DNA of 53,870 nt from a virus, in IMG/VR virus record IMGVR_UViG_3300043119_000046, positions 1 through 53,870 of that record; one strand, written 5' to 3'. Below the pieces are notes generated by a model. It did not search any database, was not told the origin of the DNA, and saw only the letters and a list, made by a program, of their open reading frames with translations. Each line of letters begins with the position of its first letter. Within the stretch, counting starts at the first letter, position 1. A program made the position numbers and the translations under genes. Shown piece by piece: positions 30,651-44,062 of the stretch.

Positions 30651-30762
30651 CTTGTTTCCACTTCTTTAGGATTTCCACATCATTTGGACTATGCCAACCA
30701 ATCACACTGCAAATCTTTAGTTCCTTAGGCTTCTTAAAGAGAGACTTCAGCCATTGTATCAT
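30643..30762 (-). CDS. Mini-protein, paralogue of downstream gene's N-terminus (39 aa)
   Basis: Reads MIQWLKSLFKKPKELKICSVI at its start and ends KKWKQDV. It overlaps its neighbours by 8 and 1 bases. It shares the pattern M-x-x-W-L-x-x-L-F-x-K and I-x-S-V-I with the 96-residue protein downstream, so the two probably arose by duplication. Confidence 0.6.
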   Translation of the reverse strand: MIQWLKSLFKKPKELKICSVIGWHSPNDVEILKKWKQDV

Positions 30763-31385
30763 CACATAAACCCTTGTCTAAGTCTTACCAAAAGCTTTTC
30801 CCCCTCATCTTCCCAAGTTCTGATTAGGTTAAGTAAAGACACAAACTCTACCTCTGTCATTTGGCCTTTACTGGCGTTTATTTTAGGAGAGGCTATGCAC
30901 AAATTTAAGAGTTCATTTAGACCACCCCTAAAAGGTGGTATCTTATGGTCGATGTGCATTTCCCACAGAGTCAACTCTTTTCCTGTATAGTAGCAGACCA
31001 ACGGTTGTGCCTCAAGCCAACTCTGTATTGCCGTTGTTGCAGGGGTTGTTGCCCGAAGTTCAGGGAACTTTCTTGCCCGGTTCAAAAGGCTCGACCTAAT
31101 AGCCCTTGCTTTCACAAGGTAAGGTTGTTCCTTTTTCAACTGGCTCTTGTGTAACTTGGCAGAGAACTTCTCCCTCTTATAATCACGGGGCTTTCTTCCA
31201 GACTTTTTGCAATCTCTACACAGAGAAGTTCTGCCTGTGTAAGACTTTGTTGCAATGTTAAAAGATTCCCAAGACTTAAACTCACCACACCCAGTGCATT
31301 CTCTGCCTTCATCTGTTATACTTGTCTTAAACTTCTTTAGGGTTTTTGGCTTCAAGGTTAACAGGGGTTTAGCTGCTCGTGTCAC
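30762..31385 (-). CDS. HNH homing endonuclease (207 aa)
   Basis: The N-terminal zinc-ribbon-like part has CTGCGEFK and CRDCKK. The HNH core is VCYYTGKEL, MHIDHKIPPFRGG and LNLCIASPKINASKG. It starts with GTG overlapping the exonuclease stop (GTGA). As a free-standing mobile endonuclease it lies between small genes and the recombination gene; no sign of a self-splicing intron. Confidence 0.8.
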   Translation of the reverse strand: MTRAAKPLLTLKPKTLKKFKTSITDEGRECTGCGEFKSWESFNIATKSYTGRTSLCRDCKKSGRKPRDYKREKFSAKLHKSQLKKEQPYLVKARAIRSSLLNRARKFPELRATTPATTAIQSWLEAQPLVCYYTGKELTLWEMHIDHKIPPFRGGLNELLNLCIASPKINASKGQMTEVEFVSLLNLIRTWEDEGEKLLVRLRQGFM

Positions 31386-32236: not shown

Positions 32237-32772
32237 AATGGTATATCATCCTCGTCAATGGTCATAGGCTTAGGTGCTGGCTTGGCTGCTGCTTTAGGTG
32301 CAGCCTTGGGTGGTGGTGCATCCTCCTCGTCATCTTCGTCGGGGTTATACTCTACGTGGTTGGTAACCTTAACCTTTTCAAGGCGAGTACCCACGATACC
32401 CTTACGCTTCGTGTCGTAGACGTTGAGGATAATCTCTACGGTAGAACCGTTACCAATAGAACCATCCTCGTCGTAGTCCCAGACAGAACCATCTGCCTTG
32501 ACCACCTTAGGCGCACCGCCACCATACTCCTCGGTCCACTTACGGCGGAAGCGTACCCGTGTCAGGCTAGAGTCCTCTGGGCTTTCCTTGCCCTTGAGCA
32601 GTGACTTGCTCTGGTTCAGCTTGGCGATGCTTGCTGCATCCAAGTCAACGTCGATGGTACACTGACCACCAGACTCCTTGAGTGCATCCTCAAACCCTGT
32701 CAGGTCACGATTGTCCTCAAAGACTTTAGCCCAGTAGCCAATGCCAGTCAGCTTTACTTTACGTGTTCCCAT
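32233..32772 (-). CDS. ssb: Single-stranded DNA-binding protein
   Basis: 179 residues. An OB-like domain with FEDNRDLTGFEDA and VRFRRKWTEEYGG is followed by a Pro/Ala/Lys linker and an acidic tip IDEDDIPF, the classic SSB C-terminal hook that recruits replication enzymes. Located between polymerase and exonuclease. AAGGAGCTACAC precedes the ATG. The length and layout are closer to phage (T7 gp2.5-type) SSBs than to E. coli SSB. Confidence 0.8.
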   Translation of the reverse strand: MGTRKVKLTGIGYWAKVFEDNRDLTGFEDALKESGGQCTIDVDLDAASIAKLNQSKSLLKGKESPEDSSLTRVRFRRKWTEEYGGGAPKVVKADGSVWDYDEDGSIGNGSTVEIILNVYDTKRKGIVGTRLEKVKVTNHVEYNPDEDDEEDAPPPKAAPKAAAKPAPKPMTIDEDDIPF

Positions 32773-32808
32773 GTGTAGCTCCTTTGTGATGTGTAATAGT
32801 AACAGATA

Positions 32809-32961
32809 TTAGTTTGATTGTGCAAGAGGTTTCTCGCCTGCCACACGATATTTTCTCTGCTTCGAGTTGTCCCGAACCAACTCCTTACCCCCTGCTGCCA
32901 GACGCACAGGGATGCTGTTTGGCTTGGTCAACTTCTTCAAGCCCACGATTTTCTTTTCCAT
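32809..32961 (-). CDS. Small basic protein (50 aa)
   Basis: Starts MEKKIVGLKKLTKPNSIPVR at ATG 32961 with GAGGG seven bases before it; the longer frame to 33012 would overlap the polymerase end without a better start. Strongly basic. Lies between polymerase and SSB. Unknown function. Confidence 0.6.
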   Translation of the reverse strand: MEKKIVGLKKLTKPNSIPVRLAAGGKELVRDNSKQRKYRVAGEKPLAQSN

Positions 32962-32971
32962 GATCTTTCCC

Positions 32972-33505
32972 TCAATGAATGTCAGCGTATCGTACACCAA
33001 ACTGCACATCAATGTCCAGCTTAATATTTAGCTTGAGCTTCTCGTTCACCTTCTCAATGGCCCAACGGAGAACTGACTCATGTTCTTTCTCCTCACCCAC
33101 TGGAATGCGATTGATAGACTCGTCGTGAAACTGACCCACGATGTTTGGTCGTTTGGTCAGGTAGTGTGCCACCCACTGGTCGAAGCAGTATGCCCCAGTG
33201 GACTGGTTTAGCGTACTCCAAACATCCTTTTCAAACCGTAAGGAATACCAGAAACCGTTGACAGGATTTTTAACCCACATGTGTCCAGCTAGAGTTTTAC
33301 GTTCTGACTTCTTGGCCACTTCCTGCACTGCCCAGTTAATTTTCCAGAACGCCTCTAATAAACTAGCTGCCTCACCCTGACTCATGCCTGTAGTCCTAGC
33401 TAACTTTGCTTTTCCTACACCATACATTGCGCTATAGGTCACAACTTTTGCTTTCTTACGGATAGCATGTATCCTCTTATACCTCTGCTCTGGTGTCTCT
33501 GTCAT
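32972..33505 (-). CDS. DNA polymerase A, C-terminal fragment (motifs B and C)
   Basis: 177 residues carrying polymerase motif B (RKKAKVVTYSAMYGVGKAKLA) and motif C (VGQFHDESI). It is the fingers/palm end of a T7-like family A DNA polymerase. Motif A and the exonuclease are encoded by the separate gene at 33979-35331. Translation has its own start: AAGGAGAAAAT lies before ATG 33505, inside the end of the HNH gene. The two chains presumably assemble into one active enzyme, because both sets of motifs are intact. Confidence 0.85.
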   Translation of the reverse strand: MTETPEQRYKRIHAIRKKAKVVTYSAMYGVGKAKLARTTGMSQGEAASLLEAFWKINWAVQEVAKKSERKTLAGHMWVKNPVNGFWYSLRFEKDVWSTLNQSTGAYCFDQWVAHYLTKRPNIVGQFHDESINRIPVGEEKEHESVLRWAIEKVNEKLKLNIKLDIDVQFGVRYADIH

Positions 33506-34004
33506 ATTTTCTCCTTGTGTTCTCTGCTGGAGTTATCCATTGGCAGTTATCTGGGTGGTAGTTACCTTCTGGGTTTACCCTGTCAATAGATAACCCTTCT
33601 TTGTAACCATTTGTTGTGGCCCATACATAGAAGTTATGAAAATCCTCCCATTCAGAACATACAGACACTCCTTTGCCCCCGTAGTATTTCCACCTTTGGG
33701 AATTGGGGTTTGTACACCTCTGTTTCATTGACTGATACACAGCGTATAGTTTATGCTTATGTAGCCCATGTCTTGTAGGGTCACACCTGTTTTGTAATAG
33801 GGTCTCTTTCCTTAAACACCCACAAGATTTTACCGAATCTTCTCCAGTGATTCTGTAGGTAGCTAGTTGAATTGTCCCCCCACATTCACAAAGACATTCC
33901 CAGTAGTGCTTATTGTATTTACCTACCCCTAGGTAAGACTTAACAGTAAGACGACCTACCTGAAAACCTATAGGGTCACTAACTTTCTTTCTTGTAATTG
34001 ACAT
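33477..34004 (-). CDS. HNH homing endonuclease interrupting the polymerase gene (175 aa)
   Basis: N-terminal FQVGRLTVKSYLGVGKY and CLCECGGT..SCGC form the DNA-binding/zinc part. The nuclease part is LYAVYQSMKQRCTNP, YYGGKGVSVCSEWEDFHNFY and LSIDRVNPEGNYHPDNCQW. It overlaps the polymerase N-terminal gene by 26 bases and the C-terminal gene by 29, leaving no room for intron structure. It is therefore a free-standing endonuclease whose insertion split the polymerase. Confidence 0.85.
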   Translation of the reverse strand: MSITRKKVSDPIGFQVGRLTVKSYLGVGKYNKHYWECLCECGGTIQLATYRITGEDSVKSCGCLRKETLLQNRCDPTRHGLHKHKLYAVYQSMKQRCTNPNSQRWKYYGGKGVSVCSEWEDFHNFYVWATTNGYKEGLSIDRVNPEGNYHPDNCQWITPAENTRRKYDRDTRAEV

Positions 34005-35331
34005 AGAAATTATAGTCCTCCTCTGAAATCATTCCTGCTACCACTGCCAGCTTAAGGTGTGGGTCATAGTCACTTCTCGATTGTTCTGCCACATAGTCAG
34101 GATCATAGGGGTAGATGAAGTGACGCTTAGTGGTATCCTCAAGAGACACCATGTCAGCACCACACAGGACTGTACCCTCGTCAGCAATAAGCGCACCACG
34201 GATTTCCTTACCCCAAGGTTTATCAACTCCGGGAAGATTAACCAGTGGCTTCTTATGCTTGAAGCGTAGTGTGTTGGTTAGGCCAGCAACTTCTGCACTG
34301 ACATACCCATCAACCTCTGACTCAAGCATACCCTCGAAGATAGACTTGCGGTGCTGCAAGACGGTAAGCCCATCAAGAACACCAACCTCTGGGTGATCCT
34401 CAATGAGTAGCTTAACAGAAGGTGCAAGCTCACCATCCTTGCGGACCTGTGGGACTAGCCTCTCGCTACCATCATCGTTGGTCTTGTAGTCAAAGGTGCA
34501 TGGCTCCCACCCGAAGGAGAACAGCCAGTCCTTGACCTGATCAGGTGAGTTAGGGTTAGCCTTCTCCTTGCTCTTGACTATAGTAACATCATCTTCGTGG
34601 AACAACGGTAGGTCATTATCTTCAAGTATCTTGAACCAGTCCAGTGCAGCCTTGCTATGTGACCCGTCCTTAATGGTCATCTTCTCAGGCTTGGACTTGG
34701 TGGTATACTTGACCACATCAGGCATGACACTACGTAGTTCCTCGACCTTCTCAACCTGCAACTTCTCTAGGGTAGCCAGAGATTCAGTTACAAGTTTCTT
34801 GTCGATGCGCCAGCCAGCAGCACTAGCCTTGTGTGCCACACGCATCTTGAATGTGAGGTACTGGAAGAACTTCTCCATGTTGTCTGTGTCCTTGCCATAC
34901 AGCATCTTGTAACGCTTGCTCAGGTTCTGCCACAGCATCCAGTTGATCTTAACATCTTCCTCACAACGATGCTTATACTCCTCATAGGTTAGGCCAACCC
35001 AGTCCGTAACCACAGGCTTAGGGATACCAAAGTCTACACCGAAGGACTCAAGCCCGTGTATCCCTCGGTCGGTGTTGATTACCCAAGACATGGGCAGTGT
35101 GTCATAGAGCTTAGCCTTGATGGTGATACCAAGGAGCTTCTCTAGAACAGGGATATCGAAGCGACAGATATCGTGGCCAATAAGACTGTCAGCCCCACTG
35201 AGTATGTCACGCATATCACCGTAGTTATTGGTGGAGTTGATCGACTTGCCATCCGTTGTCCACGAGAGAACATGGACTTTCGTTGCTTGCCGTAGCAGCC
35301 CGTCAGTCTCCGTGTCGAATAAGATCATCAT
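33979..35331 (-). CDS. DNA polymerase A, N-terminal fragment (3'-5' exonuclease and motif A)
   Basis: 450 residues. The exonuclease has DTETDG at the start (Exo I), IGHDICRFD (Exo II) and YKHRCEEDVKINW (Exo III, here CEEDV). The polymerase part goes as far as motif A (CGADMVSLEDTTKRHF) and ends NYKKES. The missing motifs B and C lie in the next gene downstream. Replicates the phage genome with the gp4-like primase-helicase. The start codon follows GGAAGTATG; either of two adjacent ATGs may be used. Confidence 0.88.
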   Translation of the reverse strand: MMILFDTETDGLLRQATKVHVLSWTTDGKSINSTNNYGDMRDILSGADSLIGHDICRFDIPVLEKLLGITIKAKLYDTLPMSWVINTDRGIHGLESFGVDFGIPKPVVTDWVGLTYEEYKHRCEEDVKINWMLWQNLSKRYKMLYGKDTDNMEKFFQYLTFKMRVAHKASAAGWRIDKKLVTESLATLEKLQVEKVEELRSVMPDVVKYTTKSKPEKMTIKDGSHSKAALDWFKILEDNDLPLFHEDDVTIVKSKEKANPNSPDQVKDWLFSFGWEPCTFDYKTNDDGSERLVPQVRKDGELAPSVKLLIEDHPEVGVLDGLTVLQHRKSIFEGMLESEVDGYVSAEVAGLTNTLRFKHKKPLVNLPGVDKPWGKEIRGALIADEGTVLCGADMVSLEDTTKRHFIYPYDPDYVAEQSRSDYDPHLKLAVVAGMISEEDYNFYVNYKKES

Positions 35332-35398
35332 ACTTCCTTACAATATCTGGTAGTGTTTCGCGTAGTTCACTAGATATAGGTTGGTTACGTGGGCCATC

Positions 35399-35878
35399 TT
35401 AGAAACCTTCTTTGTTACCTTTTCGGATGTTAGCTTTTGCTTCAAGTATCTGTAAGTTCCAAGGGACATTGAGTCCACATACATTCTTACCTTGAAGGGG
35501 TATGATATGATCTACGTGATACTTCTCTGGGATAAGTTTCTCTAACTCTCTACAATACTCATGTAGTTTTGTCATGCTTTCAAGCTGCTCTTCTGTAAGC
35601 CAGCTTGGGGTAGCCTTCATCCTACTGTAACGATACTTAGCTTTGTATGAAGAAGACTTCTCTGGGTTTTCTTTATGCCACTTATTGACATTATCCCTAG
35701 ACTGTTCTTTGTTTCTTTCTCTCCACTCTTTTGCCCTTAGTTTGTTAGTCTCTCGCTTACCTTCGTCAGCAATCCTACGTTTATGTTCTGCCTGTTTTTT
35801 ACAGGTGACATTACAGAAGACAGCGTGACTTCTCTTACCCTCTGCTAAAGGTTCTCCACAGTTTTTACATAGCCTCAT
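35399..35878 (-). CDS. HNH homing endonuclease (159 aa)
   Basis: The N-terminal zinc ribbon has CKNCGEPL and FCNVTCKK, followed by a long basic helix with repeated KWHKEN-type units. The C-terminal HNH core is KYHVDHIIPLQGKNVCGLN and WNLQILEAKANIRKGN. It is transcribed from its own promoter (35908-35936). Inserted between primase-helicase and polymerase, two conserved genes, as mobile endonucleases often are. AGGAGA precedes the ATG. Confidence 0.82.
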   Translation of the reverse strand: MRLCKNCGEPLAEGKRSHAVFCNVTCKKQAEHKRRIADEGKRETNKLRAKEWRERNKEQSRDNVNKWHKENPEKSSSYKAKYRYSRMKATPSWLTEEQLESMTKLHEYCRELEKLIPEKYHVDHIIPLQGKNVCGLNVPWNLQILEAKANIRKGNKEGF

Positions 35879-35907
35879 GGTAGTCTCCTGAAAAAGCCGA
35901 TTCGCAA

Positions 35908-39552: not shown

Positions 39553-39762
39553 TTACCAGTTCTTTCTTGTTTTCCAGTAGGCCCAACACTCCAAGCAGTG
39601 ACTCTCACCAAAGAAGTAGTCGATCACTACGCAGAGGTTGGGCAGTTCATTACGCTGCCACTCATAATTCCTAGCACTGAACGTCTGGTTGTTGTCACCT
39701 CCAAGGATAACATTAAGCAATACGCTCAGTGCAACAATGATACGGTGAAAGTAGCGATACAT
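39553..39762 (-). CDS. Possible membrane-anchored small protein (69 aa)
   Basis: An N-terminal hydrophobic segment (IIVALSVLLNVILGG) precedes a Trp/Cys-containing domain with CVVIDYFFGESHCLECW. The ATG overlaps the integrase stop (TGATG). Could be a membrane-tethered Cys protein; role unknown. Confidence 0.6.
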   Translation of the reverse strand: MYRYFHRIIVALSVLLNVILGGDNNQTFSARNYEWQRNELPNLCVVIDYFFGESHCLECWAYWKTRKNW

Positions 39763-40841
39763 CAGGTCTTGTTCCCCTTTCGGATACCTTGTGCTGTCTT
39801 AGCACCGTTGTATGTGTGCCTCATGTATGGGTTGAGGCTACTGATGTTCTTATGCCCGGTCACCTGCATTATTCCAATACTATCCACGCCCGCTGCCACG
39901 AACTCATTGATAGCTGTCTTACGCAAGTGACCTATCTTCAAATCTTCTGGTAGCCCACACGCCACCTTGATAGAGCGAAGTATAGGACCAAAGTATACTG
40001 GTGTCAACGGAACATAAGCTCCGTCAGCTATACGATGGTGTGGGACCACTAACTTTTGGAACCCCCAGTCATCCTGTTGCTGCTTGAGCATACTCAACAG
40101 GGGTTCATCAATAGGTAGGAACACCTCGGCCCCACGCTTGGACTGCTTGATGGATACCCTAGCCGCAGTCAGGTCAACCTTGTCCCATGTCAGGTGGCAG
40201 ATGTCAGTAGGTCGTTGCGCCCACTCGTAGCACATCATCACGAGAAGCCCTACGTTTCTCCATTTGAAATCTTTGAAAGCTGTATCAAGGAACAACTCAA
40301 CCTGATCCTGTTTCCAGATGGGTGTCACTGGTTCGTGCTTGAGTTTCTTAACCTTTCCCATTGGGTTATCGTTCACAAGGTCTAGTGATCTGGCATAGTT
40401 TAGCACCACAGAGAATAGCCTAGCACGTTCATTGGCCTTAGCCACAGAGTGTTCAGATACCCACAGCTCATACGCCTCGTGGCACAGCTTGGCGGTCAGC
40501 TTGTTGATAGGTAGGTCACCTACCCACATGCCCGAAACCTTAAGTAACTCAGTCTCATATTTGATCTGAGAACTACTAGCAAGGGAAGCATACTGCTTGG
40601 ACAACAGGTAGTAGTTGATGATGTGTTTGACCTTGGACGTTGGCCCTACATTACCCTCTTTGATATAACCTTTACGGTATGCTGCTATCTTTTCGAGTAG
40701 TCGGGGTATCTCATAACGTGCAGCCCTACCATCCTCAAAGGTTTGAGAGCTAACAACACCAGCCTTCCTGACTTCCTCTGGTGGACTAAACCTATAGACA
40801 GTTGACCCATCCTTTAGGGTAACCTTTTTTGTATACTTCAT
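39762..40841 (-). CDS. int: Tyrosine recombinase / integrase
   Basis: 359 residues. A core-binding domain lies at about residues 70-165. The catalytic domain has Arg210 (EWAQRPTD), a Lys in IKQSKRG, His305-x-x-Arg307 (GHLRKT), His330 (TGHKN) and Tyr339 (NPYMR), the full set for the family. It would join the phage and host chromosomes at an att site and suggests a temperate or formerly temperate phage. The leader has an 11-bp inverted repeat (40859-40899) and TACTTAAGT boxes. Confidence 0.88.
   Translation of the reverse strand: MKYTKKVTLKDGSTVYRFSPPEEVRKAGVVSSQTFEDGRAARYEIPRLLEKIAAYRKGYIKEGNVGPTSKVKHIINYYLLSKQYASLASSSQIKYETELLKVSGMWVGDLPINKLTAKLCHEAYELWVSEHSVAKANERARLFSVVLNYARSLDLVNDNPMGKVKKLKHEPVTPIWKQDQVELFLDTAFKDFKWRNVGLLVMMCYEWAQRPTDICHLTWDKVDLTAARVSIKQSKRGAEVFLPIDEPLLSMLKQQQDDWGFQKLVVPHHRIADGAYVPLTPVYFGPILRSIKVACGLPEDLKIGHLRKTAINEFVAAGVDSIGIMQVTGHKNISSLNPYMRHTYNGAKTAQGIRKGNKT
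39979..40007 (-). promoter_or_regulatory. Possible minus-strand promoter inside int
   Basis: On the minus strand TTGACA, 17 bases, TATACT within the integrase gene, placed to transcribe the RyR-thyX block without the integrase. Close to consensus but inside coding sequence. Confidence 0.35.
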
Positions 40842-42118: not shown

Positions 42119-44062
42119 TTATGCGTTGTCGATGAGGTTGACGTAGGTTAGGAAGTGATGCTTGATCTTATCACTCCCATCGTATAACTTCAACAGGGGA
42201 TACTTGTCAAGAATTTTACTGTATTCTTCAAGAACCTTGTCGTTGTTAATTACTGGTAGACCAAGGCGCTGGAACTGTTTGTCCCACACACTACGACCTA
42301 ATCCCATAAACTGGGTGTTAGCTGATCCTTCTGTCAGGCAGGAGAACTGTCCAAGCAGACCTTTACTACTACCCATTCCGCACAGCTTTGTGAAAGGGTA
42401 TTGAGCATACTGGTTTCCCAATACGATCTGTGCTGGTGCATGATACTGCTTAACCATAGCGTCTACCTTTAGCATTAGCAGCTTCCATTGTGTTGCAGCC
42501 TCAAACTTCTTCCACATGGGCTTAGGCACGAGGATGATTGGCATACCCAACTGCTGCTCAATGAAGGTCCGCATTTGCATAAGGGTTTCAGGGTAAGCTC
42601 CACCTTCCATGTGGTAGTAGTATCCACCCCTGTCGAAGTCCTCAGCGGATAGGTCATGGTCAACCCTACGATCCCTATTAAGAGTAGACACAGACAGCTT
42701 ACCTCGTGCTGCTGACTTAACTGGGCCAGTGTCAGGCAAGTCCTTGACGTATACTACTGGGTAGTCAACCTCGTGGATCAACTGGTCAAGGCTGGACTTC
42801 TGCGTTGGGTCAGACATATCTGCCTTCACCCAGATATAACGCTCACCACCCTTGATGTTAGAAGCAATACGGGTGGCTGCTCGTGCGTTAGTCTTCTTGT
42901 CCTTCAAGTCCTGCACATAGATGTAATAGTCATACCCTGCGTAGACTTCCTTATCAAGGCCAAAGCCAACACTCTTACCATAGTAGCTCTTGCTACCCAC
43001 ATGGAGAGATAGCTTGGGATACGTCAGATCGGTAGCCTTGATCTTAATAGGGTTGCCACCCCACTTAAGTGTGACATCACCCAAGACCCGAAAGAACTTT
43101 ACTGCCAGCTTGTTAGCACGAAACAGTGTAGGCTGAGCGTCAAGCTCCTTCTGTGCAGTGTCCACCATACCCTGCTTGACTACCCGAAGTTTCTTCTCAA
43201 GGCTCTTAACTGTGGGATCGTTAGCACCATAGCTTAGTGACTCACGAGAGGCAGTGACTTCCAGATCACCAATGTCAAACTCATAGATGATGTTGCGATT
43301 GTTACTTGGCAATAGACCCGTAGGGATAGAAGCACTAGAGATAGGATAGAGAACACACCCCATCTGTGCATAAGGTCCATTCAGTCGGCTGTCCTTGTAG
43401 AAGTAGTAGCCATCACCACTGAGGCTCTTCTCAATGGGTTGGAACTGCTTCTCCTGCGAGTTCTTTACCTTAGGTGGAACCTTGAAGCCGTAGGACACAA
43501 CCTCTGCTGCACGTTGGAACAGTGGGATGTCCTCACGCTTGACGGGGAAGGATACCTCAAGCCCATCAGGCTCATTGGTTGGCATAGGTTCAGACAGAAC
43601 GTGAAGCTGCGGTGATCCATCAGGTCCAAGCTGGATGGAGTAGTATGCCACCATGCCCTTGTGACGGGACACTACAGAGAACGTATCGGTGTATGACATG
43701 GGTGACATACGGCCCACACCCCACTTGCCTACAGCCTTGTTGGTGTCCTCCTTGGTGGAGTGACCAAGCACCGTGTAGAAACCCTCCATGTTCTCATGTG
43801 CTATGCCTGCACCGAAGTCACGGCATGAGAACGTAGGGGTCAATGATGTGGGGAAGCTGACCTCGAAGGGAACATCCTGCTTGCCAATCATTGAGTGTGC
43901 ATCAAAAGCATTTGACCAAATCTCACGAGTGATTGACTGTGGCTTGTTTGAGTAGAGGCCAGAGATAACCATGTGAAACATCTTGCCTGATGCTTGGATC
44001 GTGAAGTCCTTAGATGAGTGGCTGTTGTTATCAACCACACGAAGATTGGTGTTCGTCTGCAT
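42119..44062 (-). CDS. rIIA: rIIA-like GHKL ATPase
   Basis: 647 residues. The GHKL fold is shown by SITREIWSNAFDAH (N box), FSCRDFGAGIAHENMEGFYTVLGHSTKED (G1 box) and GKWGVGRMSPMSYTDTF (G2 box) in the first 130 residues, then an S5-like and long helical/beta region. This is the layout of phage rIIA proteins. With rIIB it probably forms a pair acting at the membrane or against host/prophage defences. A 17-bp palindrome lies in its leader (44094). Confidence 0.87.
   Translation of the reverse strand: MQTNTNLRVVDNNSHSSKDFTIQASGKMFHMVISGLYSNKPQSITREIWSNAFDAHSMIGKQDVPFEVSFPTSLTPTFSCRDFGAGIAHENMEGFYTVLGHSTKEDTNKAVGKWGVGRMSPMSYTDTFSVVSRHKGMVAYYSIQLGPDGSPQLHVLSEPMPTNEPDGLEVSFPVKREDIPLFQRAAEVVSYGFKVPPKVKNSQEKQFQPIEKSLSGDGYYFYKDSRLNGPYAQMGCVLYPISSASIPTGLLPSNNRNIIYEFDIGDLEVTASRESLSYGANDPTVKSLEKKLRVVKQGMVDTAQKELDAQPTLFRANKLAVKFFRVLGDVTLKWGGNPIKIKATDLTYPKLSLHVGSKSYYGKSVGFGLDKEVYAGYDYYIYVQDLKDKKTNARAATRIASNIKGGERYIWVKADMSDPTQKSSLDQLIHEVDYPVVYVKDLPDTGPVKSAARGKLSVSTLNRDRRVDHDLSAEDFDRGGYYYHMEGGAYPETLMQMRTFIEQQLGMPIILVPKPMWKKFEAATQWKLLMLKVDAMVKQYHAPAQIVLGNQYAQYPFTKLCGMGSSKGLLGQFSCLTEGSANTQFMGLGRSVWDKQFQRLGLPVINNDKVLEEYSKILDKYPLLKLYDGSDKIKHHFLTYVNLIDNA

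Follow-up and report, generated by a model that had tools for sequence, protein, structure and literature searches.

The DNA analysed here, referred to as the window, is the whole of the virus record IMGVR_UViG_3300043119_000046, a viral contig of 53,870 bases (53.9 kb). On its minus strand the first part of a DNA polymerase gene, an HNH gene and the second part of the same polymerase gene follow each other in three different frames (Table 1). An earlier note on this DNA had placed the exonuclease and motif A in a 450-residue part and motifs B and C in a 177-residue part, and both ORFs are found with these motifs. Part 1 has all the exonuclease motifs (DTE, GHD..FD and EEDV) and motif A (GADMVSLED, residue 391), and part 2 has motif B (RKKAKVVTYSAMYG) and motif C (FHDE). 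With these motifs, and with the fold of T7 DNA polymerase in the model of an intact homologue, the divided gene is that of a T7-like family A DNA polymerase. The parts match the PHROG 17 profile colinearly, part 1 at profile positions 672-1055 and part 2 at positions 1060-1233. From this it follows that nothing is missing between them, and the two together cover the whole intact protein without loss at the junction.

The 473 nt between the polymerase parts are HNH coding sequence throughout, and both ends of the HNH gene overlap polymerase coding sequence. The overlaps with the first and second part, given in the note as 26 and 29 nt, are exact when recomputed, and the AAGGAG said to head part 2 is present at the end of the HNH gene. 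The only DNA polymerase found in the 53.9-kb contig, which may be incomplete, is this one of family A, with none of family B; the other intact polymerase gene that the note had named as counter-evidence was not found in it. A search of bacterial and archaeal genomes with the polymerase returned no relative.

Table 1. Features of the divided polymerase locus in the window, and polymerase loci in three pieces in related contigs
Feature	Position	Strand	Content	Evidence
DNA polymerase part 1, 450 aa	33979..35331	-	3'-5' exonuclease domain, thumb, first palm portion with motif A	ORF; PHROG 17, E 3.4e-63
Motif A of part 1	34135-34161	-		motif position
HNH endonuclease, 175 aa	33477..34004	-	putative inserted homing gene	PHROG 374, E 6.4e-57
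DNA polymerase part 2, 177 aa	32972..33505	-	fingers with motif B, palm with motif C	Pfam DNA_pol_A, E 4.6e-11; PHROG 17, E 7.1e-24
Motif B of part 2	33419-33460	-		motif position
Motif C of part 2	33116-33130	-		motif position
Shine-Dalgarno AAGGAG for part 2	33511..33516	-	within the 3' end of the HNH gene	5 nt before the part-2 ATG
Shine-Dalgarno-like AGGAGG	34017..34022	-	within the part 1 coding sequence	12 nt before the HNH ATG; sequence only
Putative co-conversion tract	33212..34083	-	HNH gene with about 100 bp of part 1 and about 290 bp of part 2	breakpoints, conflicting trees, AU tests
Three-piece polymerase, L134	2209-4522
Three-piece polymerase, L135	2006-4141
Three-piece polymerase, L136	2-2525
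Three-piece polymerase, L137	1945-4522

The protein encoded between the polymerase parts is of HNH type by its match to PHROG 374, with a Cys-rich N-terminal half and the C-terminal motif SIDRxNPxGNYxPxNCxWIT, and an alignment of eight HNH homologues has 36 invariant columns. The profile match to I-HmuI (1u3e) is weak (E 0.016), a Pfam search with the window protein gave no match, and its AlphaFold model is of low confidence (pLDDT 65), with no usable match in a fold search. A search with the HNH protein alone finds distant homologues of 37-44% identity, none of which has a recognised copy of this polymerase in its locus. The protein has no match in the intact relatives, and the site is polymorphic: empty and in frame in L001-L006 and L254, filled in the window, L029 and L134. 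From these sequences the protein would be expected to act as a nuclease, with the polymerase gene of a relative as its target.

Two more genes resembling HNH or endonuclease VII genes occur in the window, one at 35399-35878 between the primase-helicase and the polymerase, the other at 30762-31385 downstream of a PD-(D/E)XK nuclease gene; near relatives have other genes in these two slots (L001 4513-5004, L002 8700-9304). Further away lie an integrase-like gene (PHROG 1) at 39762-40841 and an rIIA-like gene (PHROG 612) at 42119-44062.

Position of the break among uninterrupted and split relatives

In viral contigs the two parts are fused in one frame in 311 locus rows with 200 distinct sequences, and split relatives account for 18 rows from nine contigs; the rows overlap, so that 311 and 18 are not independent counts. 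All nine contigs are split in the same loop as the window, by nucleases of three families, and two of them carry identical polymerase sequences from different samples. The split is therefore neither chance nor assembly error. Since splits are rare among the sampled relatives, some of the split alleles could be young and costly.

The place of the break is given by the uninterrupted homologue L001, for which an AlphaFold model was made (mean pLDDT 89); the best PDB match of this model is T7 DNA polymerase (E 3.5e-26). The same flanks are here fused in frame, as the note had proposed to look for, and part 1 ends opposite L001 residue 449 in the alignment, within a loop (445-452) between helix 436-444 and helix 453-474, the latter bearing motif B (463-476). 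According to the model, then, the break lies in a fingers loop just before the O-helix, next to motif B. Across 51 uninterrupted representatives, no 12-residue stretch of residues 330-627 is less conserved than the one at 449, where 0 to 10 residues are present. The core of the note, the splitting of a T7-like family A polymerase by an HNH gene, is thus borne out by ORFs, profiles and uninterrupted homologues, while its placing of the split inside the palm has to be given up in favour of the variable loop before the fingers O-helix.

Motif B itself differs between the two kinds of allele. It reads RKKAKVVTYSAMYG in the HNH-split alleles and RKKAKVVTYSATYG in L023; in the listed relatives without an interruption the Y is preceded by N (KxVNYSxxYG or similar), and the variant RKKAKVVTYSA occurs in no intact relative examined.

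A divergent tract around the HNH gene

When the window polymerase is compared at the DNA level with its uninterrupted relatives L001 and L002, the identity is mostly 87-99% between codons 26 (approximately) and 400 and 97-99% over codons 551 onwards, most blocks of codons 26-400 and 551-627 reaching 90-99% against L001; in most blocks of codons 417-548 it falls to about 50-60%. The limits of this tract, at codon 417 and at codons 548-551, are sharp, and they enclose about 870 bp around the HNH gene, while the genes neighbouring the polymerase are about 91-96% identical to those of L002. A second lineage repeats the pattern: between L135 and the uninterrupted L254 the identity is 33-65% around the junction and 87-100% beyond it, and the limits of the tract almost coincide with those in the window. 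The allele closest to the window tract is that of the HNH-split L029. The donor allele was not found among the relatives, the nearest split allele (L029/L126) having only about 75% protein identity in the tract.

Trees of the tract and of the rest of the gene, the backbone, differ in the same sense. In the tract tree the window, L029/L126 and L134-L137 form one clade (SH-aLRT 98), to which L023 is sister (97). In the backbone tree the window goes with L001 (100), L134-L137 belong to a distant group near CRP-6, and L029 and L023 are found elsewhere. A single clade of HNH splits is rejected on the backbone by the AU test (p 4.8e-5) and the grouping of the window with L001 is rejected in the tract (p 2.4e-5), with groups that were named after the data had been seen and trees that were quick searches. 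The split and uninterrupted states require six changes on the backbone tree and three on the tract tree. From the conflict between the two trees it follows that the cassette has moved between polymerase backbones. A replaced tract in two lineages, conflicting trees and the AU tests together make the pattern of horizontal spread with co-conversion, and the low-identity tract is, as judged from these sequence comparisons, the footprint of homing with co-conversion of the flanks.

A tract of this kind could also be produced by ordinary homologous recombination that happened to include the HNH gene, with no nuclease driving it. Phage replication genes are mosaic, and breakpoints near conserved coding blocks, as here, would favour recombination of any sort. 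Such an exchange is nevertheless an unlikely source of a tract that is short, surrounds the HNH gene with similar limits in two unrelated backbones and is common to all HNH-split alleles.

Other nucleases at the site and splits without a nuclease

The HNH genes of L029/L126 and L134 are of the same type as that of the window (55-60% identity). The nucleases of L023 and L151 are instead of the endonuclease VII type (Pfam PF02945; 66% identical to each other), a type that includes the known homing endonuclease F-CphI (PMC6083498), and that of L236 is an HNH_3 protein. Wherever this was checked, the ORF of the nuclease overlaps the polymerase part on either side. Part 2 of L023, L151 and L236 starts with a common leader, LTxEEMKxLxxxEQ, which by eye is absent from the uninterrupted genes examined, and because the three share it, a common junction with swapped nucleases is suggested.

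In L135, L136 and L137 the HNH gene is cut down to its two ends. About 46 nt, ending ACACAAGGAGATCAAATG, remain from the last sense codon of part 1 to the ATG of part 2, and ACACAAGGAG is kept before this ATG, so that the Shine-Dalgarno sequence is retained. The parts are out of frame with a stop between them (TAA in L135, TAG in L136 and L137), and both chains remain open in all three nuclease-less contigs. From this it follows that splicing is not required, and since these relatives without the HNH gene still hold the polymerase as two ORFs, assembly in trans is strongly implied. Two chains that assemble and are active in trans are very probably the form of the enzyme in the window as well, and L135-L137 would be the strongest evidence that it works as separate chains. 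Between L135 and L136, which differ by few substitutions, dS and dN are 0.075 and 0.011 in part 1 (dN/dS about 0.15) and 0.065 and 0.012 in part 2 (dN/dS about 0.18); by this measure both chains are under purifying selection after loss of the nuclease. As a separate observation, the identity between L134 and L135 is 100% for 2.2 kb downstream of the deletion in the HNH gene and 95% in the N-part, and it changes at the HNH gene, as if the two had recombined there.

Consider now the case where the polymerase gene is broken and decaying, and the phage relies on another polymerase, of the host or undetected. Split alleles are a small minority of the relatives, and since the contig may be incomplete a second polymerase could lie outside it. 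Decay is all the same quite improbable: every exonuclease and polymerase motif is intact, dS is 0.25 and dN 0.02 between the window and L001 outside the tract, selection persists in both halves of the nuclease-less genes, the same split is kept in several diverged lineages, and no other polymerase was found in the contig.

In L134-L137 the exonuclease domain is also encoded by a separate ORF, so that the polymerase is in three pieces: exonuclease, N-part and C-part (Table 1). The exonuclease ORF directly overlaps the polymerase part in L134, is followed by an 82-aa ORF before the N-part in L135, and is separated from the N-part by a DNA methylase gene of the N6_N4_Mtase family in L136 and L137. 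L254 and L255 have the same exonuclease split with an uninterrupted polymerase part.

There are two ways in which a single polypeptide could nevertheless arise. In the first, the HNH gene is carried by a group I intron and the spliced mRNA gives one chain, as in SPO1, PhiI/W31, Pf-WMP3 and JA-1, and HNH genes in phage family A polymerases are indeed often borne by introns (PMC3428280; JA-1). At E<=5, window positions 32500-35900 gave no match to a group I intron or to any other Rfam family that would be plausible, and six split loci gave nothing at the gathering cut-off; as a positive control, the permissive search finds the group I intron of JA-1 at E 2.4e-5, below the curated cut-off. The HNH coding sequence moreover fills the space between the parts and overlaps both, the known introns occupy highly conserved regions (PMC3428280) where the present site is the least conserved loop, and the 46 nt or so that are left in L135-L137 give no room for a ribozyme, although the parts there are still interrupted by a stop and out of frame. 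A spliced single chain is therefore highly improbable. An intein would lie in frame within a single open frame and bring splice blocks with it, and it is rejected because there are three different frames with stops between them; the note had excluded intron and intein alike, and both exclusions hold. The second way, translational bypassing or frameshifting as in T4 gene 60, where 50 nt are bypassed, can be dismissed almost entirely, for although the gap of about 46 nt in the nuclease-less relatives is near that length, it is 473 nt in the window, inspection by eye shows no matched take-off and landing codons (the end of part 1 reads ACC-stop in L135, AGT-stop in the window), and part 2 has its own Shine-Dalgarno sequence and ATG in every HNH-type split.

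Proposed mechanism and comparison with known split genes

Taken as a whole, an intronless HNH homing insertion with co-conversion that leaves a two-chain polymerase is held with high confidence. In this scheme an HNH homing endonuclease gene, with neither intron nor intein, would have entered a T7-like polymerase gene at its least conserved loop. The HNH endonuclease would cleave or nick the polymerase gene of a relative, and repair from the split donor would copy in the HNH gene together with about 100 bp of coding sequence upstream and about 290 bp downstream. From one mRNA, part 1, the HNH protein and part 2 would be translated through the overlapping start and stop regions, so that translation of the parts may be coupled, with the ribosome-binding site of part 2 supplied by the tail of the HNH gene. 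The two polymerase chains would then fold jointly to give a functional replicative enzyme. Because the two-chain polymerase may be kept when the nuclease gene is deleted, the split can be made permanent.

A further step can be proposed tentatively, with rather less than even confidence: the mobile unit may be a portable fission module, made of the HNH gene and co-adapted fingers segments with the motif B variant RKKAKVVTYSA, which makes any recipient polymerase work in two chains. A ratchet would follow, in which nucleases of different families are replaced or deleted while the enzyme stays split, in one lineage as three chains.

Splits by homing genes into parts that assemble in trans are already known, and so are split family A polymerases. 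In Aeromonas phage Aeh1, nrdA is split by the HNH gene mobE, and the split enzyme was shown to be active (PMC2988022). There, as in the window, the gene that is divided is essential and related to replication, and the HNH homing gene that divides it is free-standing, with no intron or intein; but the enzyme is a ribonucleotide reductase and the phage T4-like, where the window has a family A DNA polymerase, and the present system, unlike Aeh1, has spread repeatedly, has exchanged its nucleases and includes derivatives that have lost them. Gene 43, a family B polymerase, is split in Aeromonas phages 25 and 44RR, and in phage 25 its two chains co-purify and are active (PMC2988022). In these phages, too, two genes encode the replicative polymerase, and what lies at the split is either a homing endonuclease gene or a spacer that is not translated, but their polymerase is of family B and the nuclease seg-like, while the window has family A and an HNH gene, and it is in the relatives of the window, unlike phages 25 and 44RR, that the spacer-only form can be recognised as a deleted HNH gene.

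The note had called the split of a family A polymerase much less usual, which is too strong in view of MEP401/MEP402, MQM1 and the HNH intron of JA-1. The OM43 phages MEP401 and MEP402 have a split DNAP, for which their authors suggested an intron (PMC10580990). As in the window, this Zobellviridae family A polymerase is encoded by two ORFs with a small ORF between, but the split comes about 63 residues earlier, immediately ahead of motif A, and gp14, the 77-aa protein encoded between the MEP401 parts (L247 6111-8221), has no known homology and is not a recognisable nuclease; MEP401 is consequently not the same split, and marks a different place at which a family A polymerase is divided. The polymerase of Aeromonas phage MQM1 is encoded by three ORFs with an HNH gene between (PMC10410586); like the window it is a podophage Pol I-type polymerase interrupted by an HNH gene, and by the published description, on which the comparison is based, its parts are of 590, 115 and 56 aa. 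HNH genes are carried by group I introns of phage DNA polymerases in SPO1 (I-HmuI), W31 (I-TslI) and Pf-WMP3 (I-PfoP3I), in regions described as highly conserved (PMC3428280), and JA-1 has an HNH intron in its family A polymerase (PMC3670811), where the HNH gene interrupts the gene inside motif A. These four share with the window an HNH homing gene inside a polymerase gene, but theirs is spliced out, or inferred to be so, from highly conserved sites, and that of the window sits without an intron in the least conserved loop. Two other candidates are not this split: in Acinetobacter phi1_092033 the HNH gene comes after the polymerase, and in pAh6-C two ORFs overlap elsewhere in part 2. In the openly licensed papers searched no report was found, for a family A polymerase, of this site, of repeated cassette transfer, of nuclease exchange or of a nuclease-less two-chain stage.

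Steps in the fission of a gene by a selfish gene can be seen next to one another in these natural lineages: a site that is still empty, an insertion whose flanks are co-converted, a single site occupied by nucleases of different kinds, and a split that persists after the nuclease has gone.

For a homing gene to reside safely in an essential gene, an intron or intein is thought to be needed. In several of the present lineages that role falls to a variable loop in a replicative polymerase. The locus and its relatives are a source of natural T7-type polymerases in two and three chains, and they make it testable whether split subunits can have a neutral, ratchet-like origin and whether assembly depends on the converted flank.
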